Part shown: positions 2,533-64,000 of the stretch, piece by piece
How positions within the stretch are numbered: the stretch's first letter is position 1
Layout: the number at the start of each line of letters is the position of its first letter
Virus record (IMG/VR): IMGVR_UViG_3300032294_002797
Span: 62,001-126,000 of that record
Origin: a virus
Strand: one strand, 5' to 3'
DNA: 64,000 nt
Position numbers and translations under genes: made by a program
Notes under the pieces: model-generated
The model's database searches: none
Seen by the model: the letters and a program-made list of their open reading frames with translations, nothing else
What the model was told of the DNA's origin: nothing

Positions 2533-5232
2533 ATGGCCACATTATTTTTTGATGGTTTTGACAGAGCCACATTTACTAAACAATTAGACCCAAAATATTG
2601 GTCTACCGAATATTCTAAGCCAGGATATCCACGATATGCTTTTGGAGGATATACCTATAGCAACGAAACGATAGCATCAAATGGAATATTATCGGCAACA
2701 TACTCTACATATTCTGTAAATAATGGAATTGTCCCTAGTGGTCAACATTATAGTACTATTTGTTCAGACAATAACTGCGGTACTTATATACTGAGTAATG
2801 ATTATCCTGGTTTTGGTAGTCCTCCCGGATTTTTAGCTCTTACGAATGTTCCTGTTAATGATCCTAATAATCTTGAATTTATAAGTTATATTCAACTAAG
2901 TGGCTTTCCTTCTATAAGCGGAACAAAATCTTATTTTGGTATCAGAACTTTAGGAATAGAAACCAAACATTTAGATTACCACAATGTAGACTTTCCTGCT
3001 GGAAGATTTGGAAATAAACATCCATTTTTAGCATTTTGTAGTGGAAATGTTACTGGTTTGTTATTGAACATAGTACAGATTAGCGGAGATCATCTTTTAC
3101 CACTTAAGATGTACAACCCCCCACAAAATACAGGGGTGAGACAATCTATCGGTTTACAGGTGGAACAAAATAATGGAATTAGTGGAGTTTTTGATTTAAA
3201 TTTATCAGATACTTTACCTAATTATAGAATTACTCCTTTATATAGTGCGCAGGATACTAATGGAATCCCATCTCTTAGCAATCCTTGTAAAATACTGACA
3301 ATAGCTAATGATGATACGATAAGATCCCAAGGTAAAGGTATCACAAGAGGAAGCGATGTTACGTCTAGATGGACACATTTTGAATTTGAATTTGATCATA
3401 TAGGCGGAGGACTAAAGCTAAAAGTAGAGGGAACAGATGCACTAGTAGAAAATACTGATATTTATACCGATAGAGATCTATGGGATATAGAGATACAAAT
3501 TAGTGGTTTTAAATATGATAATATTAGATTGTTTAATAGAACATATGAGCGAAATGCTCACTACTATGATGAAGGTGTGCTACTCTTTCAGTATCTTTCT
3601 ATGGTTCCGAGACCCCGCAATCCTGTTGACTCGGCATATTATGCTAGAGGACAATTAATATTATTTGATGATATAACTTTGGTTGATAACACAGGTAATG
3701 ACCCTAGATATTTTCTAGGTGCAGATTCTAAGATATTACCACTCACTCCAGGATTAACTTTCGTCATCAATAATAATGATACCCAACAGGCTCTTAATAA
3801 TAATCAAATTATTTCTGATGGACTAACAGAATGGAGTAAGAGTACATCGTCTTCAGATAGAAGACTATTAGCATCTATGGATAAAGACTCTTCATATATT
3901 TTTACAGATAAAAAAGGGGTCATCAACAGCATTATATATGCAGCTAATAGCAGAGGTAGAGATAACTATGGCAACTCCTTATCATTTTCCGATCCTCTGT
4001 CACGTTGGAGACACAATCCTGGTGAAGCTGTCGCAGGATTAAAAGTGTATAATAGTGCTCGTAAAAATTTTCTAGATTCATCTTTTATAAACGTTTTTGA
4101 GACAGGCATCTCCGATCCTCACAGAAATAATGTTATGCTCTTAATACATGGTGAAGAGGATCCTATTCGAGATTATTCTAAATACAATCATCCTATTATA
4201 AAGGATGGTTCAACATATTATACCTCTAATCATAGATTTGGCTCTAGTGGAATTGCTTTTTTGAGTGATAATCAAAAACAATCATCATTAATAGCAAATA
4301 TACAGAAGCATCCCGAGGAAGAAAAATTTACGATTGAGTCTTGGGTAAACTTCACAGGACAAAATGATACTATTGTACTTATGGATACTTTTCCTAGGAC
4401 ATTACCTAACATAATTCCAGCATTTAATTATAATAGCTACTCACAATGGTATAGAATATCCTGTAATCCATCTTCTATAAAAATAGAACATCCTATAAAA
4501 ATAAATCCAAATGAAGACGGTCAGAACACCTGGGAACTCTCTTCTATAACGTCTCAATTAGTTTTACCTTTTCCTGTTATTGCTAATACTGGAGAATGGC
4601 ATCACGTAGCTCTTGTAAGATCCCATCCATTGCCTAATACCGGTCAGTATATTGCGTATTTGAATGGTGTTTCTGGTACAACATATCAGAGACTATCTTT
4701 CCCATCCGGACGTAAAGGTCAAGGATGGCAATTTTTCGATGATAATAACAACTCCATACTAGATCATAACGGTAATTTTGCCATCTGGTATCCCTCTAAG
4801 TTAAAATCAAGTGATATTATTGATGGGCCAGTTCTTTATAGCTTAACTAATTCTTATCCGTATGTATCAACAGATACTTCTGGTTTGCCATTTTTACAGA
4901 ATATTTTATTTGGTGGAAATGGACTTTGGTATGGTTCGTACTGGGGCTCAAGAGACCCTTATCCATATATTTTTATAGGCTATAGTGGCATTATTGATGA
5001 ATATAGATATAGTCAAAATATTGCAAGATATACTAGTAATTTTGATCCACCAACCTCAAAGTTTAAGGCTAATTATGATGATTATATGAGGTTCGGACCA
5101 ATCCATACAACAGATAGAGCATCATATAGGCTATTTCAATTTTACCAAATGACAAATCCAGGTACCAATCAACCCTGGACATCCGGAGAAATTTTCACCT
5201 CCGGAATCAGATTGGGAGTAGAAAAATTATGA
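2533..5232 (+). CDS. Large virion adhesion protein with a LamG-like C-terminal domain
   Basis: An 899-residue protein that starts 'MATLFFDGFDRATF', a form typical of concanavalin-like phage surface proteins. Residues 1-350 look like a first beta-sandwich unit. Residues about 530-850 resemble a LamG domain: 'NNVMLLIHGEEDPIRDYS', 'KFTIESWVNF', 'GEWHHVALVRS' and 'YIAYLNGVSG' follow the family's usual order of strands. No catalytic motif is recognised. A GGAG site at 2523-2526 precedes the ATG. The 42-base gap upstream is one of the few in this block. Its stop overlaps the start of the next gene as ATGA, suggesting coupled translation. Probably a tail-fibre or capsid-decoration adhesin that binds surface glycans; the LamG call is firmer than the role. 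Confidence 0.65.
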   Translation: MATLFFDGFDRATFTKQLDPKYWSTEYSKPGYPRYAFGGYTYSNETIASNGILSATYSTYSVNNGIVPSGQHYSTICSDNNCGTYILSNDYPGFGSPPGFLALTNVPVNDPNNLEFISYIQLSGFPSISGTKSYFGIRTLGIETKHLDYHNVDFPAGRFGNKHPFLAFCSGNVTGLLLNIVQISGDHLLPLKMYNPPQNTGVRQSIGLQVEQNNGISGVFDLNLSDTLPNYRITPLYSAQDTNGIPSLSNPCKILTIANDDTIRSQGKGITRGSDVTSRWTHFEFEFDHIGGGLKLKVEGTDALVENTDIYTDRDLWDIEIQISGFKYDNIRLFNRTYERNAHYYDEGVLLFQYLSMVPRPRNPVDSAYYARGQLILFDDITLVDNTGNDPRYFLGADSKILPLTPGLTFVINNNDTQQALNNNQIISDGLTEWSKSTSSSDRRLLASMDKDSSYIFTDKKGVINSIIYAANSRGRDNYGNSLSFSDPLSRWRHNPGEAVAGLKVYNSARKNFLDSSFINVFETGISDPHRNNVMLLIHGEEDPIRDYSKYNHPIIKDGSTYYTSNHRFGSSGIAFLSDNQKQSSLIANIQKHPEEEKFTIESWVNFTGQNDTIVLMDTFPRTLPNIIPAFNYNSYSQWYRISCNPSSIKIEHPIKINPNEDGQNTWELSSITSQLVLPFPVIANTGEWHHVALVRSHPLPNTGQYIAYLNGVSGTTYQRLSFPSGRKGQGWQFFDDNNNSILDHNGNFAIWYPSKLKSSDIIDGPVLYSLTNSYPYVSTDTSGLPFLQNILFGGNGLWYGSYWGSRDPYPYIFIGYSGIIDEYRYSQNIARYTSNFDPPTSKFKANYDDYMRFGPIHTTDRASYRLFQFYQMTNPGTNQPWTSGEIFTSGIRLGVEKL

Positions 5233-7703
5233 GCTTTAATTTATCTATTCCATTATCTTCTGGTATATTACAGGGTTTTTATATAGAACCAAATAATTCT
5301 CAAATTATAGAGGATATAGACGGAAACTATCAATTAATAGGATATAATCCATCTGGTTATAGAAATAATAAAAATATCATAGAAAGATTTTGTGTCAACA
5401 CAATAGATTTATCTTTACCTATCCATAAAGGAGCACTAGTATCTGCTAATTTAATTTTAAATTTATCTAGTGGGATAGATGACAAGACTCTAACGTCTGC
5501 TCCTCAATTGGGTTCCGACCCCAATATTAATGTAAATATAAGCGTTCCTGCTTTAGAGAGCGATTTCAGAAAAGCACTAGTTTCAGATTTTGGATCATCT
5601 ACAAATATACATATAGCATCGTGCTCTCAATCAGGCGGATATTTGCCAAGCAATAATTTCTCAACTATCCGAGATTATAAAAAAACTAATATATCGATTG
5701 TCACAGTAAGCGCAAACTCACAGGTATCCATACCGGTAACCGAACACTTATTACCTCATAATAACTCTATATCGTGGCAAAAAAATAATAGAATAATTCT
5801 GATACTTAGCGGAGTAAGATCCGGCTTAGGAGCAGGAGGCGTGATTAATATAGGCAACGAGTTTGCTCTTAGTCCATCTCTATTGAATTTGGTATACGAT
5901 CCGGTTCCTCCTTTTGAGCCACAGTCGCTCGTTATATCCGAAACAGCATACAAACAAGTTAGTTTAAACTGGAATTATCCTGCGGATGACGGAGGTGCTA
6001 ATGTAACAGATTACACTATACAATACGGACCCGTGTCTGGTGATGCTATATACTCTACCAACTGGTTAGTTGCTGGTATTACTAGTTCAACATCATTTGC
6101 TGTCGATAATTTAGAGTTAGACAAAACATATATTTTTAGAGTAGGTGGTAGAAATTCTGCTGGTCAAGGACAATATACTACACCCAGCATACCAATTACC
6201 ATATCTCGATCAGGTGCTCCTGTCACTCCGTTATCCTATAACGACAGTAATTATACTAGAATTAGGGTTAGAAGAGACACCCTGTCTCAATGGACAGGTA
6301 TTAATCCTACTTTAGCTATCGGAGAAATAGGATACGAGCTAGACACCCATAGGATGAAAGTAGGAAATGGCACTAATTCCTGGAATAGCTTAGCATACCT
6401 AACAGTAGACGAATCATCTATCGATTTTCCTACCCCACCAGATACTCGTTTGATCATAGCATCTTCACCAAATAATATTTCTAACAATGATAGAATAATT
6501 ATAAACTTAACAGATGGAGACAGACTCAATATAGTAGGAGAAGAAGGAGTTACTATAGACTATAGTAATAGTTATAAAAGACTAAGTATTAAAACAGATA
6601 AATTATATAATCCTGTTAGTTCCGGGACCATATCTAATCCCACTAGCTCTGGCACCCCAGGCTCATTGCTATACGATAGCGACTGGTTTTATTTTTGTGT
6701 ACAAAATAATTATTGGCAAAGATCTCCATTAGACAAAAACTGGTTCGATTTTTCTTTATTAACTATTTCTAATAATAGTGGATCTTATCCGAGTAATACA
6801 TCTATGATTTTTGATGGAAATAAATTTGCAATATCTACAGATGGTGATCCTTATCCGGCTTTAGCAGGGCGCCCTCTTAATAATAATGGTACTTCTGCCA
6901 GAATAGGTTTCAAAAATGGAGCGGTGATTGTTGATCAAAATTATACATTTAGATTGGATTATAGAGGCGGTCAATATACTCATAATCCTATGAGAATCAA
7001 TAATACTGGTATACATGGAATAATGAATAATGGTGTTCCAATTTTATCTATATCAGCTGGCACAGGAACACTACCCGGATTCGTATCGGCACCATCTGGT
7101 TTTACATATAATCTATCTTTTAATAGTCATTTTTTTGGAGCAGATGATTGTGGTGGTTATGTGAATGTGGATGGTTCATATAAGTATACAGACGGTAAAT
7201 TTTTAAAGAGGTGTTGGGAAACAGATAAATTAATAAAATCTAATAGCTATTATAGCGGTAGTCACTATAATCATGACTATTTTAGACACTCTGATGGACA
7301 TTCTAAGATTCTGGGTTTTTGCACAGATGGCTATCCTATATATGGTCCTTATGCTTATTCTGGAAGCATGAATATAGATAGTGCTATTATTAAAATGCGA
7401 CCGAGCTATTCTGGTATTACGGATAGTACCCATAGACCAATAAACTGGAAATATTGGAACACTATGGTTGTTGGAGATACTCCATATTCTTTGCCTATGG
7501 GATTATTTATAGAAGATTATGTATATGTTTCTGGATATGGAGACTTAGATAATTTCAACGGAAGATTCGGAGTCACCCCAGAATATCCATCCGGAACATA
7601 TGCTTATTATTTAACTTTTGAGGATAATAATTTATCAGTACCAGCATTCCCGTATGTATTCGGAACCGGTACTAAAGAACAAAGAATCCCATATAGTGTA
7701 TAA
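5229..7703 (+). CDS. Tail fibre with FN3, Mtd-N-like and YHYH domains
   Basis: An 824-residue mosaic adhesion protein. Residues about 224-327 form an FN3-like domain ('VSLNWNYPADDGG', 'YIFRVGGRNSAGQG'). Residues about 344-391 match the N-terminal module of the major tropism determinant family, seen as 'RIRVRRDTLSQWTG', 'LAIGEIGYELDT' and 'MKVGNGTNSWNSL'; this module often starts phage receptor-binding fibres. Residues about 620-735 carry a YHYH-type domain with 'SHYNHDYF', 'HSKILGFCTDGYPIYGPY' and several Cys, His and Tyr residues. The ATG overlaps the upstream TGA by four bases. The combination suggests a distal receptor-binding fibre; YHYH is known in phage and bacterial surface proteins without a settled activity. 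Confidence 0.72.
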   Translation: MSFNLSIPLSSGILQGFYIEPNNSQIIEDIDGNYQLIGYNPSGYRNNKNIIERFCVNTIDLSLPIHKGALVSANLILNLSSGIDDKTLTSAPQLGSDPNINVNISVPALESDFRKALVSDFGSSTNIHIASCSQSGGYLPSNNFSTIRDYKKTNISIVTVSANSQVSIPVTEHLLPHNNSISWQKNNRIILILSGVRSGLGAGGVINIGNEFALSPSLLNLVYDPVPPFEPQSLVISETAYKQVSLNWNYPADDGGANVTDYTIQYGPVSGDAIYSTNWLVAGITSSTSFAVDNLELDKTYIFRVGGRNSAGQGQYTTPSIPITISRSGAPVTPLSYNDSNYTRIRVRRDTLSQWTGINPTLAIGEIGYELDTHRMKVGNGTNSWNSLAYLTVDESSIDFPTPPDTRLIIASSPNNISNNDRIIINLTDGDRLNIVGEEGVTIDYSNSYKRLSIKTDKLYNPVSSGTISNPTSSGTPGSLLYDSDWFYFCVQNNYWQRSPLDKNWFDFSLLTISNNSGSYPSNTSMIFDGNKFAISTDGDPYPALAGRPLNNNGTSARIGFKNGAVIVDQNYTFRLDYRGGQYTHNPMRINNTGIHGIMNNGVPILSISAGTGTLPGFVSAPSGFTYNLSFNSHFFGADDCGGYVNVDGSYKYTDGKFLKRCWETDKLIKSNSYYSGSHYNHDYFRHSDGHSKILGFCTDGYPIYGPYAYSGSMNIDSAIIKMRPSYSGITDSTHRPINWKYWNTMVVGDTPYSLPMGLFIEDYVYVSGYGDLDNFNGRFGVTPEYPSGTYAYYLTFEDNNLSVPAFPYVFGTGTKEQRIPYSV

Positions 7704-60283: not shown

Positions 60284-60652
60284 TTAGAAGGCTACAGGTT
60301 GAGCTTCTTCTGTCTTGGCGCTAGATAGTCTAGCAATCTTCGAAAAATTATTTACTCTTACCTTGAGTGAATTATGCTTCACTCCATCCTTCTCCCAAGA
60401 ATCATTTCTAAGTGATCCTTCAATCATTACGAGATCCCCCTTCTTGAAGGACTTCCCTATAATTTCTGCCCCAGAATCCCACGCCTCACAAGGAACAAAT
60501 GTGGTAATCTTATCCTTGTCTCCGTTAGACTTTGTGTATTCACGAGACACAGCAATAGTAAAATTTACAACCGATGTTGTTTTACCATTGGTTGATACAC
60601 TCCTTAACTCTGGATCTCTTGCTAAATTACCTCGTAACATATTGATATTCAT
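60284..60652 (-). CDS. ssb: Single-stranded DNA-binding protein
   Basis: A 122-residue SSB with the complete bacterial-type OB fold: 'MNINMLRGNLARDPELR' at the start, 'VNFTIAVSREYTKSNGDKDK', 'FVPCEAWDSGAEIIGKSFKK', 'GDLVMIEGSLRNDSWEKDG', and a short tail. It coats single-stranded DNA at the phage replication fork. Its tail is short and ends 'EEAQPVAF' in place of the acidic DDDIPF-type tip that recruits partner proteins in bacteria, though it keeps a hydrophobic Phe at the end. The ATG has a near-perfect AAGGAGAT site at 60657-60664. It has its own sigma70-like promoter just upstream, and a stable hairpin follows, so it is probably made in excess of its neighbours. Confidence 0.95.
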   Translation of the reverse strand: MNINMLRGNLARDPELRSVSTNGKTTSVVNFTIAVSREYTKSNGDKDKITTFVPCEAWDSGAEIIGKSFKKGDLVMIEGSLRNDSWEKDGVKHNSLKVRVNNFSKIARLSSAKTEEAQPVAF

Positions 60653-60694: not shown

Positions 60695-60722
60695 ATTATA
60701 GAAATGGCCGACTCACGGTCAA
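60695..60722 (-). promoter_or_regulatory. Sigma70-like promoter for ssb
   Basis: On the - strand TTGACC at 60722-60717 and a perfect TATAAT at 60700-60695 are separated by 16 bases, close to the sigma70 consensus. Transcription would start near 60688, about 35 bases before the ssb ATG. The -35 box overlaps the stop codon of the polymerase gene. Recognition by host RNA polymerase is inferred. Confidence 0.75.
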
Positions 60723-62344
60723 GTTTTTGGAATATAAGCCTTCTCCACTATGAAACTATCTCCAGTATTATTTTTTTTACCCTTAATAATAATTACATTA
60801 TTTTCGAATAATATATTTCTATACTGTTTATAAGTATCAGGGAAAAAAATGACACTATCTATTGATCCATAACTATCGGATAGGGTTACGAAAGCCATTT
60901 CTGAGCCTGGGGTCTTTCCTGTTTTTGTTTTTGTAATTCCTATGTTATCTATTTCTCCACATAGAATGATATTTTCTTTCATTAGCAATGTTTTGAATTC
61001 TTTACAATTGCAATTAGTCATACTGATATCATACATGTCTACTTTTGAACAGGTGACACTACAACCTAGCACCTCCTCCTCTATATCCGATATCCATTCA
61101 GCGTTATCATCCATAGAATATGGAGGACGATTTAAATTGTCTATTAAACTATAAATAATTTGTTTTCTTTTTTCTGTAAGCTTATATTGGGAGGTCATGC
61201 TTTTCATAGAACTCAAGAAAGACTCTCCTATATCAACTTTGCTGATTATAAATTCTATTTCTTTTTTTGTTAGTTCACAAGCTATACTATATTCGAATAG
61301 CATACTAGTTCGAGTTTTTTTGTCATAATTTAAAGCTCCACTTTTTATTAATGCTTTAGCAGACGTAGAATTAATATTTATTAATATTTGAAGTAGTATT
61401 TGATCCCATTTCATGGATTTGATATCTAAATGTTTATTAGTGATAAGACCACCTAGTTTATTAAATACTGATTCTCCAAAGCCTTTAATGTCCGTTAAAC
61501 CAAAATAGATACAACTATCTTTCAGTATGAATAATTTATTCAGATTTCTTAGATCAGGTATACAGACCTGAATATCCATTTCGGTGGCATTCTGCACAAG
61601 CTCTTTAATTTCTGCTTTTGGATCTATTTTATCTTTGGCGAACCTTAAATAAGAAGCAAAAAAAATCTTAGGGAAATGAGCTTTTGTATATGCAGATAAA
61701 TAAGCATTGATAGCATAAGATATAGCATGACTTTTATTAAAAGAATATCTTTGGCTCTTTTCTATCCATCCGAATATTTCTTCTGCTTGCGAGGCGCTAA
61801 CTAAACCCAGTTTTTCGGACCCTTGTAAAAATTTACTTTTAAGTTTGGACATTTCTTCTGGCTTTTTTTTACCAATAGCCTTTCTCAAATTATCTGCTTC
61901 CTGTAAATCAAATCCTGCTATATATTTAGCAATTTCCATTGCTTGTTCTTGATAAATCATCTCTCCGTATGTGGTCTTAAGAATATTTTCTAGACACGGA
62001 TGATAATAGTCGATAGACTCTTGCCCATTTTTTTTATCTATATAGTGGTTAGATACTGTTTTTCCATCTCTAATTGCCTCCAAGCACCCAGGCCTTAATA
62101 TGCTGATCAAAGCAGATAGATGTTCTATATTTCGAGGCTTTAGTTTTTTAGCCATAGACCGTCCAAGCCTAGACTCCAATTGAAAGCATCCTTTAGTATT
62201 GCCGTCAGATATTAGGTCCCAGGTTTTAGAACAGTCTAGATTTAAACTATGTCTAATTGGATCAAACTCCACCAATAACTGGTTGTTTTCTGATGGAATA
62301 ATATCGAATGAGCATCCACAATCGTAATTAAAAGTTTTAGGCAT
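60719..62344 (-). CDS. dnaE: DNA polymerase III alpha subunit, C-terminal half (fingers to OB fold)
   Basis: A 541-residue protein when begun at ATG 62344 (eight-base overlap with the exonuclease gene). It corresponds to the C-terminal half of bacterial DnaE: 'NTKGCFQLESRLGRSMAK' at the fingers entry, 'LISILRPGCLEAIRDG', 'TTYGEMIYQEQAMEIAKY', 'ADNLRKAIGKKKPEEM' and 'RYSFNKSHAISYAINAY', all diagnostic. The end has an OB fold ('IILCGEIDNIGITKTKTG', 'AFVTLSDSYGSIDSVIFF'). The catalytic Asp residues of the palm are absent; they are in the separate gene at 63228 and beyond. The first about 35 residues ('MPKTFNYDCGCSFDII') have extra cysteines not usual in DnaE. Together the two proteins should make one polymerase. 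A longer start at 62398 is possible. Confidence 0.88.
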   Translation of the reverse strand: MPKTFNYDCGCSFDIIPSENNQLLVEFDPIRHSLNLDCSKTWDLISDGNTKGCFQLESRLGRSMAKKLKPRNIEHLSALISILRPGCLEAIRDGKTVSNHYIDKKNGQESIDYYHPCLENILKTTYGEMIYQEQAMEIAKYIAGFDLQEADNLRKAIGKKKPEEMSKLKSKFLQGSEKLGLVSASQAEEIFGWIEKSQRYSFNKSHAISYAINAYLSAYTKAHFPKIFFASYLRFAKDKIDPKAEIKELVQNATEMDIQVCIPDLRNLNKLFILKDSCIYFGLTDIKGFGESVFNKLGGLITNKHLDIKSMKWDQILLQILININSTSAKALIKSGALNYDKKTRTSMLFEYSIACELTKKEIEFIISKVDIGESFLSSMKSMTSQYKLTEKRKQIIYSLIDNLNRPPYSMDDNAEWISDIEEEVLGCSVTCSKVDMYDISMTNCNCKEFKTLLMKENIILCGEIDNIGITKTKTGKTPGSEMAFVTLSDSYGSIDSVIFFPDTYKQYRNILFENNVIIIKGKKNNTGDSFIVEKAYIPKT

Positions 62345-63044
62345 GTTTATTTGACGACGATACAAATGAATCTTTGAACTTAACCTTTTGAGATACATTA
62401 CGATGAAGTTTTAGAAATCTCATCAGTATCTCTGCACAGTCCTTAACATCTTTAAGAGCATCATGAGCACCTTTTTTATCTATGCCTAGATAATCTCTAA
62501 GATTATCCATAGAATAGCTTTTAAGATCGTTATTTTGTTCAAACCAATAAAATACTAAGTTCATAATATCTATAACATCTCTTTGAAAGAAAATATTGCT
62601 ATTACCTTCTTTATTGGTATCCCCATATTTCTGACTTAATCTATCAATAATTTTTAGATCAAAGCGATTAATATTGTATCCAGCTGGTAGCGGCGCAGAA
62701 AATTGATTTTTCTTAGAACTTCTACTATGGTATTTTGTTAAATATTCTGTAAACATTTTCCAGGATTGTTCTTGAGGAGGATACTTGAGCCATTCGTCCA
62801 GTACTTCTTTTTTGGAAGAACCCTTAACTTTGGCATGAAAATCCAAGATATCAGTTTCATATACATACTCAGGATTTTTTTCCAAAACTTCGGGCTTGAA
62901 GTAAATATTAAATTCTGAATCTGGAATAATCTCTAGAGATATTGGATCAATTATCACCGAGGCTATCTGAACAGGACTACATTGAGTAGGATCGGAGCCG
63001 TCCGTCTCAAAATCAAAGACACATATTTTATTGTAGTTTATCAT
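62337..63044 (-). CDS. DnaQ-like 3'-5' exonuclease (DEDDh)
   Basis: A 235-residue exonuclease of the DnaQ family, which proofreads in DNA polymerase III. Motif ExoI is 'VFDFETDG' near residue 9, ExoII is 'NINRFDLKIIDR' near residue 125, and ExoIIIepsilon is 'GAHDALKDVKDCAEIL' near residue 192, giving the DEDDh set with His before the last Asp. A central insertion with 'SKKNQFSAPLPAGY' is somewhat long for the family. The gene lies between the two halves of the polymerase gene and overlaps both neighbours by a few bases, so co-production with the polymerase as its proofreading subunit is very likely. Confidence 0.88.
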   Translation of the reverse strand: MINYNKICVFDFETDGSDPTQCSPVQIASVIIDPISLEIIPDSEFNIYFKPEVLEKNPEYVYETDILDFHAKVKGSSKKEVLDEWLKYPPQEQSWKMFTEYLTKYHSRSSKKNQFSAPLPAGYNINRFDLKIIDRLSQKYGDTNKEGNSNIFFQRDVIDIMNLVFYWFEQNNDLKSYSMDNLRDYLGIDKKGAHDALKDVKDCAEILMRFLKLHRNVSQKVKFKDSFVSSSNKHA

Positions 63045-63226
63045 GAGTTATTAGATTGAATTACTTCCACCTCTGTAATGGGCACAACTTGTATCTTTTC
63101 TCCCGTAGCAACAGACTGAGCATTAAATACTTTGCAGCAACTCAATCTTTCGTCTGGTATTCTCAGGTATTCTTGTTGATTGTATAAAAATTTATCACCA
63201 TTTTTTAAATCTGCCATTCTTGTCAT
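63041..63226 (-). CDS. Small conserved-looking phage protein (61 aa)
   Basis: A 61-residue protein with 'LKNGDKFLYNQQEYLRIPDE' and 'LSCCKVFNAQSVATGEKIQV', like small phage proteins of unknown function with a GDxF/EYxRIPD pattern. Its ribosome site GGGAGA precedes the ATG, one base after the stop of the polymerase N-terminal half, and it overlaps the exonuclease start by four bases. A role at the fork is suggested by the neighbours only. Confidence 0.6.
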   Translation of the reverse strand: MTRMADLKNGDKFLYNQQEYLRIPDERLSCCKVFNAQSVATGEKIQVVPITEVEVIQSNNS

Positions 63227-63227
63227 T

Positions 63228-64000
63228 TTATTCTCCCTTTTTTAAAATATCTTGTATAGTCATAATTTTATCTAACATAGCAACTCCCAATATGTCAAAC
63301 TTTATTATACCCAAAGATTCTAAATCTTGCATCTCCATACCGGCTATCGTTTGCTCATTTTTTACATCGTACACCATAGGACATATATCTTTTAAAGCAT
63401 GGGAGCTGATGGCTATGCCGGCGGCATGCTTGGATTGATTAGATTTCGTGCCCTCTAATCTTATAGCCTGTTCGAACCTTTTGGCAAGTGGTCCTTGTAA
63501 TTGTTGATTCTCATCTAAATAGCACCAATCTTTTAATTTATCTCCATTATTTTCTAATGCCCAGCGTATAATAGACGCTTCTCCCGTTTCTTCTTTCATT
63601 TCTTGTAGATCGTCAGCTATTTTAGCTTCATCTGGTATGTGCTTGGTGATATTGTTCATTTCATCGAAAGAAATATTACCATAAACACGCAATACATCTT
63701 TCAAGGCTCCTCTTCCTTTGATTGTATTAAACGTAATCATCTGAGAAACTTTATCATGTCCATATTTCTTTTTAATATATTCGATAATATTTTCTCTTTG
63801 ATTGATAGGAACATCAACATCTATATCTGGCATAGAGATATGTTCTGCAGTATTTCTACCAGCATTATAAAATCTATCAAACATTAGATTATACTTAATT
63901 GGATCTATATTGGTAATACCTATTAAATAGGAGACCAAACAACCAGCAGCACTTCCTCTGCCCGGCCCGGGAAGCCAGTTATTGCTTCTTACATAGTTCA
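63228..64000 (-). CDS. dnaE: DNA polymerase III alpha subunit, N-terminal half (palm), 5' end outside window
   Basis: The visible about 256 residues are the palm of a bacterial-type DnaE. In frame from the window edge it has 'PGRGSAAGCLVSYLIGIT' at 63945-63968 and beyond, then the catalytic 'PDIDVD' at 63813-63830 (two metal-binding Asp), 'TKSNQSKHAAGIAIS' (the DnaE palm lysine/His region), and 'IIKFDILGVAML' near 63290 with the third Asp. The protein stops at TAA 63228-63230 just after 'MTIQDILKKGE', exactly where a normal DnaE has the linker to the fingers. The fingers are encoded separately at 60719-62344. The PHP domain, if present, lies beyond position 64000. No intein motif is seen at the break. 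Confidence 0.9.
   Translation of the reverse strand, partial: NYVRSNNWLPGPGRGSAAGCLVSYLIGITNIDPIKYNLMFDRFYNAGRNTAEHISMPDIDVDVPINQRENIIEYIKKKYGHDKVSQMITFNTIKGRGALKDVLRVYGNISFDEMNNITKHIPDEAKIADDLQEMKEETGEASIIRWALENNGDKLKDWCYLDENQQLQGPLAKRFEQAIRLEGTKSNQSKHAAGIAISSHALKDICPMVYDVKNEQTIAGMEMQDLESLGIIKFDILGVAMLDKIMTIQDILKKGE

Follow-up and report, generated by a model that had tools for sequence, protein, structure and literature searches.

A DnaE-type phage polymerase divided between palm and fingers that probably works as two chains with its own proofreader

Does a DnaE gene that lies in two pieces mark a decayed polymerase, a chain that is joined again after transcription or translation, or an enzyme that works as two chains? 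This question is raised by one end of a 64,000-nucleotide stretch (the window) of the IMG/VR virus record IMGVR_UViG_3300032294_002797, which has 223,302 bases and of which the window covers bases 62001-126000. Successive genes on the minus strand encode the palm half of a C-family (DnaE-type) polymerase, a 61-residue protein (ORF61; ORF, open reading frame), a 235-residue exonuclease and the fingers half, followed by the single-stranded DNA-binding protein SSB. A first-pass annotation had placed a 61-residue gene and a DnaQ-like exonuclease between the halves, and gene calls and Pfam located all four genes as it stated. From sequence analysis, we consider it highly probable that the replicative polymerase of this phage is a non-covalent two-chain C-family enzyme with its own proofreader.

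Aligned to hidden Markov models, as the first-pass annotation had proposed, the halves yield the parts of a DnaE in succession: PHP (4.6e-36) and the complete DNA_pol3_alpha model (PF07733, 5.6e-73, positions 1-260) in the palm half, then DNA_pol3_finger (PF17657, 2e-45, positions 24-164 of 166), HHH_6 and OB in the fingers half. As a profile against solved structures, the palm half covers residues 6-632 of Thermus aquaticus (Taq) alpha and 10-595 of Mycobacterium tuberculosis (Mtb) DnaE1. The three catalytic Asp of the palm (D426, D428 and D603, in PDxDxD and KxD) and G383-S384-A385 of the GRGSAAG motif are invariant among 37 relatives, and the nine expected PHP metal ligands (H8, H10, D17, H42, E67, H87, H139, D216 and H218) are all present and invariant. 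We take the roles of these residues, and of those in the exonuclease active site, from family knowledge. The palm gene had been described as ending right after the third Asp; the palm is indeed complete, but the end lies 21 residues past D603.

The fingers half qualifies as a C-family fingers domain, a domain marked by the motifs FQLE, YQEQ and FNKSH, and its profile matches residues 585-1055 of Escherichia coli alpha, 644-951 of Taq alpha and 610-926 of Mtb DnaE1. Its AlphaFold2 model (predicted local distance difference test score, pLDDT, 87) matches Taq alpha (4iqj) in Foldseek with an E value of 2.3e-22 over 524 columns, that is, over the whole length. Because the profile alignments reach Taq residue 632 and resume at 644, the halves are separated by a short linker only, and structure-aligned profiles put the missing DnaE residues at ~12-15, all of them linker. 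The claim that no DnaE segment is lost thus holds at the break, which falls in the natural linker, but not at the C-terminus, where the tau-binding domain of bacterial DnaE is absent and matches stop at about residue 1055 of the 1160 in E. coli. The fingers half therefore does not have the combination of tau-binding domain and internal clamp-binding motif that characterizes a bacterial DnaE1 alpha. Nor does its gene start directly at the fingers, as had been stated: fingers, helix-hairpin-helix and OB are there, but are preceded by an N-terminal extension of 30-35 residues that bears a CGC motif and has no counterpart in unsplit DnaE. Phage tblastn matches to the fingers half mostly start at residue ~28 or later. 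One subclade (L088, L221-L226) lacks the extension, whose presence changes once on the tree.

The exonuclease between the halves matches RNase_T (2.9e-13, Pfam) and phrog_192, 'DNA polymerase exonuclease subunit' (1.3e-23); its DEDDh site (D11, E13, D129, H194 and D199) is invariant among 40 relatives, and its tail K(I/V)KFKDSF is conserved. ORF61 has the invariant residues C30, C31, F13 and V53 and is predicted with high confidence (pLDDT 95) to be a small beta-barrel, with a weak likeness to SH3 and EF-P domain I. Fold matches to ORF61 are weak (EF-P domain I, E 0.012; unnamed phage proteins, E 2e-4 at best); it has no match in Pfam or NCBIfam, a single insignificant one in PHROG (0.066), and no phage protein match below an E value of ~2 in tblastn.

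Scanning IMG/VR with the fingers half gave 398 stretches that encode relatives, and further scans were seeded from distant members. The order palm, ORF61 (~60 residues), exonuclease and fingers on one strand is found in 186 of 186 complete loci, which represent 86 distinct polymerases. Whereas a C-family polymerase normally has palm and fingers in one polypeptide, two genes encode them in each of the 228 loci with a fingers gene (107 distinct proteins), and no open frame continues from the palm in any of these. Since the four-gene order recurs in 86 distinct relatives, the split is neither chance nor a sequencing error, one of two findings that the first-pass annotation had named as fatal to its proposal; the same frames and stops are present in each. 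The other was a full-length DnaE elsewhere; searches of the 223-kb record detected neither a second DnaE nor a PolA, PolB or beta clamp. In relatives, the spacing modes from palm to fingers are +2, -8/-4 and -8/-4 nucleotides; in the window, ORF61 and the exonuclease start overlap by 4 nucleotides and the ATG start of the fingers half overlaps the exonuclease stop by 8. The ratio of nonsynonymous to synonymous substitution (dN/dS) in close pairs is ~0.01-0.06 for palm, exonuclease and fingers, and 0-0.19 for the faster evolving ORF61. This strong purifying selection, together with the invariant active sites, agrees with the earlier description of an organised two-part enzyme. A decayed gene, a sequencing error and a second DnaE were all rejected, given the conserved order, the low dN/dS and the failure to detect another DnaE in the record.

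The reading of the halves as one enzyme is backed by gene order, invariant active sites, purifying selection, the lack of a joining element at the break and the failure to detect another polymerase. One chain would contribute PHP and the palm with all three catalytic Asp, and the other fingers, helix-hairpin-helix and OB, both supplied by one apparently translationally coupled operon that runs through palm, ORF61, exonuclease and fingers to SSB. The chains would assemble as a heterodimer at the natural palm-fingers linker with no covalent link, and the DEDDh exonuclease would join them as a dedicated proofreading subunit, probably docking on PHP in the manner of E. coli epsilon. With a PHP site that looks intact, and with full conservation of its ligands and of the DEDDh exonuclease, proofreading may involve two nucleases in this enzyme. 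What ORF61 and the CGC extension contribute, if anything, is conjectural, and for ORF61 an assembly or adaptor function is our guess. Because neither PolA, PolB, another DnaE nor a beta clamp was detected, we take the two-chain enzyme as the probable replicase and the host as the probable source of the clamp. Several points weigh against this picture. The association of the palm and fingers halves is deduced from their sequences; a regular-expression search of the fingers half found no QxxLF-type clamp motif of the canonical kind that would account for processivity; another polymerase or clamp may lie off the record if this is incomplete; and a diverged polymerase or clamp could escape Pfam.

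The halves might instead be joined into one DnaE chain by a trans-splicing split intein, an intron or frameshifting, which we regard as very unlikely. Mobile elements do reach these genes: intein-like inserts, or inserts bearing a homing endonuclease gene, invade the palm gene of some relatives (L049, L161, L069), the fingers gene of a distant relative (L292) has an intein, and an HNH gene interrupts the DnaE of Bacillus phage KLEB27-3 further into the fingers. At the break itself, however, the ends read directly show a palm half that stops ~20 residues past the palm without an intein-N tail, and a fingers start and extension without an intein-C ending (a junction of HN with C or S). Rfam gave no match there, and no intron signature was seen. 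In every complete relative, moreover, the interval is filled by a pair of intact genes, both with residues that are invariant or conserved. Fingers genes all begin with a start codon of their own, and the extension lacks any counterpart to which it could be spliced. As for the INDEPENDENCE of the halves, up to ~3.5 kb of extra genes separate exonuclease and fingers in L057, L059 and L060, and additional DNA separates palm and exonuclease in L162 and L163. Since such DNA intervenes in relatives and the fingers gene of L292 stands free, palm and fingers appear to be ordinary separate proteins.

We attach a similarly small probability to the halves acting apart, for example with the palm or fingers chain pairing with host DnaE and redirecting the host replisome. 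Neither a phage clamp nor a tau-binding domain was found, so that host parts would be needed anyway, and the palm and fingers genes of L292 are non-adjacent; yet the halves are exactly complementary, with zero overlap and the linker alone missing, and share one operon in all complete main-clade loci. We give next to no probability to a dead DnaE of which the halves are remnants, another polymerase having taken over replication: a split gene usually first suggests a pseudogene, and the tau-binding domain is missing, but dN/dS is ~0.01-0.06, the catalytic residues are invariant, more than 80 distinct relatives share the break and no other polymerase was detected.

How does the two-chain enzyme compare with known systems? 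Cyanobacterial DnaE is also encoded by two genes, broken inside the fingers between ...Y and CFNKSHS and mended by trans-splicing of a split intein; the break here lies ~150 residues earlier and has no intein. The E. coli Pol III core likewise pairs a polymerase with a separate DEDDh proofreader, but its alpha is one chain with a tau-binding domain. The nearest sequence relatives (up to 34% identity, same domains) are the unsplit phage DnaEs of PHROG 405, from gut, Bacillus, Streptomyces and Mycobacterium phages; in those examined, palm and fingers are contiguous and the CGC extension is lacking, whereas the window enzyme is split. DnaE is annotated as two genes in four cultured phages: Bacillus phage KLEB27-3 (L283 4914-9284), Jayan (L284), Microbacterium phage JDawG (L285) and Lactococcus phage AM11 (L287). 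Their breaks, each at a different place, lie elsewhere (at GLFQIE, between MKMP and DIDTD, after the PHP region and late in the fingers) and partly resemble intron or HNH interruptions, with an HNH gene between the KLEB27-3 pieces; unlike in the window, neither ORF61 nor the exonuclease separates the pieces in any of them.

The first-pass annotation had called this architecture uncommon, which is right, but Iyer et al. (2021, PMC7824862) had already reported another split Pol III alpha, in the group 2.2 jumbo phages. That version is minimal, lacking the other Pol III domains, and its two genes lie far from each other in genomes that also encode a family B polymerase. The likeness is that a Pol III alpha homologue of large phages comes as a pair of standalone proteins, which in group 2.2 are proposed to make up the enzyme together (PMC7824862). 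In contrast to that minimal form, PHP, fingers, helix-hairpin-helix and OB are all present here, and the halves share one operon with the exonuclease; no PolB was found, and the enzyme is the sole polymerase detected. The palm/fingers operon split is thus a fuller form of split Pol III alpha that differs from the group 2.2 form, and we found no report of it in the open-access literature, subscription journals being outside the search. The arrangement points to a bacterial replicative polymerase fold that functions in two chains, parted at a natural linker between palm and fingers and kept so stably across a large and diverse clade of uncultured phages. If true, a split polymerase would already be available for mechanistic and engineering studies, and on it the assembly of palm, fingers and proofreader could be put to the test.

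The window edge cuts the palm gene, whose start lies 1102 bases outside (genome 125228-127102; Table 1). Because the genes upstream of it on the same strand encode a PDDEXK nuclease, a deoxynucleotide monophosphate kinase, a Toprim primase and a DnaB helicase, the locus represents the replication operon.

Table 1 Features of the split polymerase locus, in window positions unless stated otherwise
Feature	Position	Strand	Length	Remarks
Palm half of DnaE (PHP + palm)	63228..64000, runs on to genome 127102	-	624 aa	
ORF61	63041..63226	-		Small protein with conserved SCC..NA motif
DnaQ-like DEDDh exonuclease	62337..63044	-	235 aa	RNase_T
Fingers half of DnaE (fingers, HhH, OB)	60719..62344	-	541 aa	DNA_pol3_finger
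N-terminal extension of fingers half (F.Y.CGCSF...I.FDP)	62240..62344	-		Missing from unsplit DnaE
SSB gene	60284..60652	-		Directly downstream of fingers half; also neighbour in distant relative L292

A distant arrangement is that of L292, a contig of a metagenome-assembled genome binned as Phycisphaerales, whose first segment is 49% identical. Its fingers gene (4293-6584) has its own normal start and a short CKC-type extension. The 4.3 kb upstream and the 4.2 kb downstream of it contain no palm gene, and SSB and glycosyltransferases come after it, as they do in the window. The intein of this fingers gene sits at the classical cyanobacterial DnaE site (FNR/C...CN/SHAVSY, slashes marking the junctions). 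Searching viral contigs outward from L292 recovered unsplit distant DnaEs only. DUF1559 genes with an N-methylation (pilin-like) motif lie between exonuclease and fingers in L059 (5806-6879) and L060 (5593-6576). DUF1559 is common in Planctomycetota, and these genes and the Phycisphaerales bin hint at a Planctomycetota host, but binning places other contigs of the clade in Flavobacteriales, Chitinophagia and Alphaproteobacteria.

In many relatives, though not in the window, a stop and a short gap break the palm gene just past its PHP motif HVHS (L009, L011, L049, L064, L069, L113, L116, L161 and others). The gene opens with M(D/G)(M/V)...Y.PLHVHS; TAA or TAG comes immediately after, then a few more bases, and the coding sequence restarts at (H/M)(Y/F)SLLDGL, as in L011 around 5249-5290. 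A pattern scan of IMG/VR with the GTCCATTCY part required gave 71 stretches, mostly of this site. Among 42 distinct sequences, the stop and following bases span 8, 9, 10, 11 and 12 nucleotides in 3, 8, 14, 16 and 1 cases, which covers all frames, and each gap ends on an (A/G/T)C(A/C/T) triplet. In the leader, the P, L and first H codons vary synonymously only, and GTC CAT TCY is invariant, as it also is in gap loci found independently through the fingers half. On the fingers tree, 23 of 87 representatives have the gap, which needs 16 changes, at least 12 of them forced by well-supported branches; four representatives scored as undetermined proved continuous on inspection.

An endonuclease VII/HNH-type gene (PHROG, 2e-20 and better) ends 17-30 nucleotides upstream of the gap site. 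It is complete in L049 (3316-4035), L116 (1316-2053), L119 (~1624-2334) and the L108, L136 and L088 types, and a remnant in L118, L134, L161, L092 and L289. Complete or not, it occurs only near gap-bearing palm genes, except in L162 and L163, where a remnant lies directly upstream of an uninterrupted HCHS palm start. The T4 gene 60 bypass also sits beside its homing endonuclease (PMC5009743); the layout here is the same, but the gap is much shorter. These gaps are a candidate family of short translational bypass elements, across which ribosomes would continue. A single frameshift was rejected, as lengths of 8-12 nucleotides span all three frames and the +1 frame of L049 meets a TGA; re-initiation was judged unlikely, as most resume codons are CAT or CAC. 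Recoding specialists expect short bypass elements to exist (PMC5009743), and if ribosomes do bypass these gaps, they would be a family of such elements that makes the question directly testable. We see an even chance that the palm/fingers heterodimer is obligate and works with the exonuclease and ORF61 from one operon, while in about one quarter of lineages the palm chain is decoded by bypassing across a mobile 8-12-nucleotide gap after HVHS, which a homing gene of the endonuclease VII/HNH type spreads in the manner of the T4 gene 60 cassette.

Apart from these gaps, inserts of ~1.2 kb sit in palm active-site motifs of some relatives, either between residues 383 and 384 (between GRG and SAAG; L039, L049, L161, L167 and L171) or near residue 429 (L069, L207 and L290). 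The L049 insert is split-intein-like, ends in VHN before S and has a nuclease gene inside, and that of L069 contains a LAGLIDADG gene.

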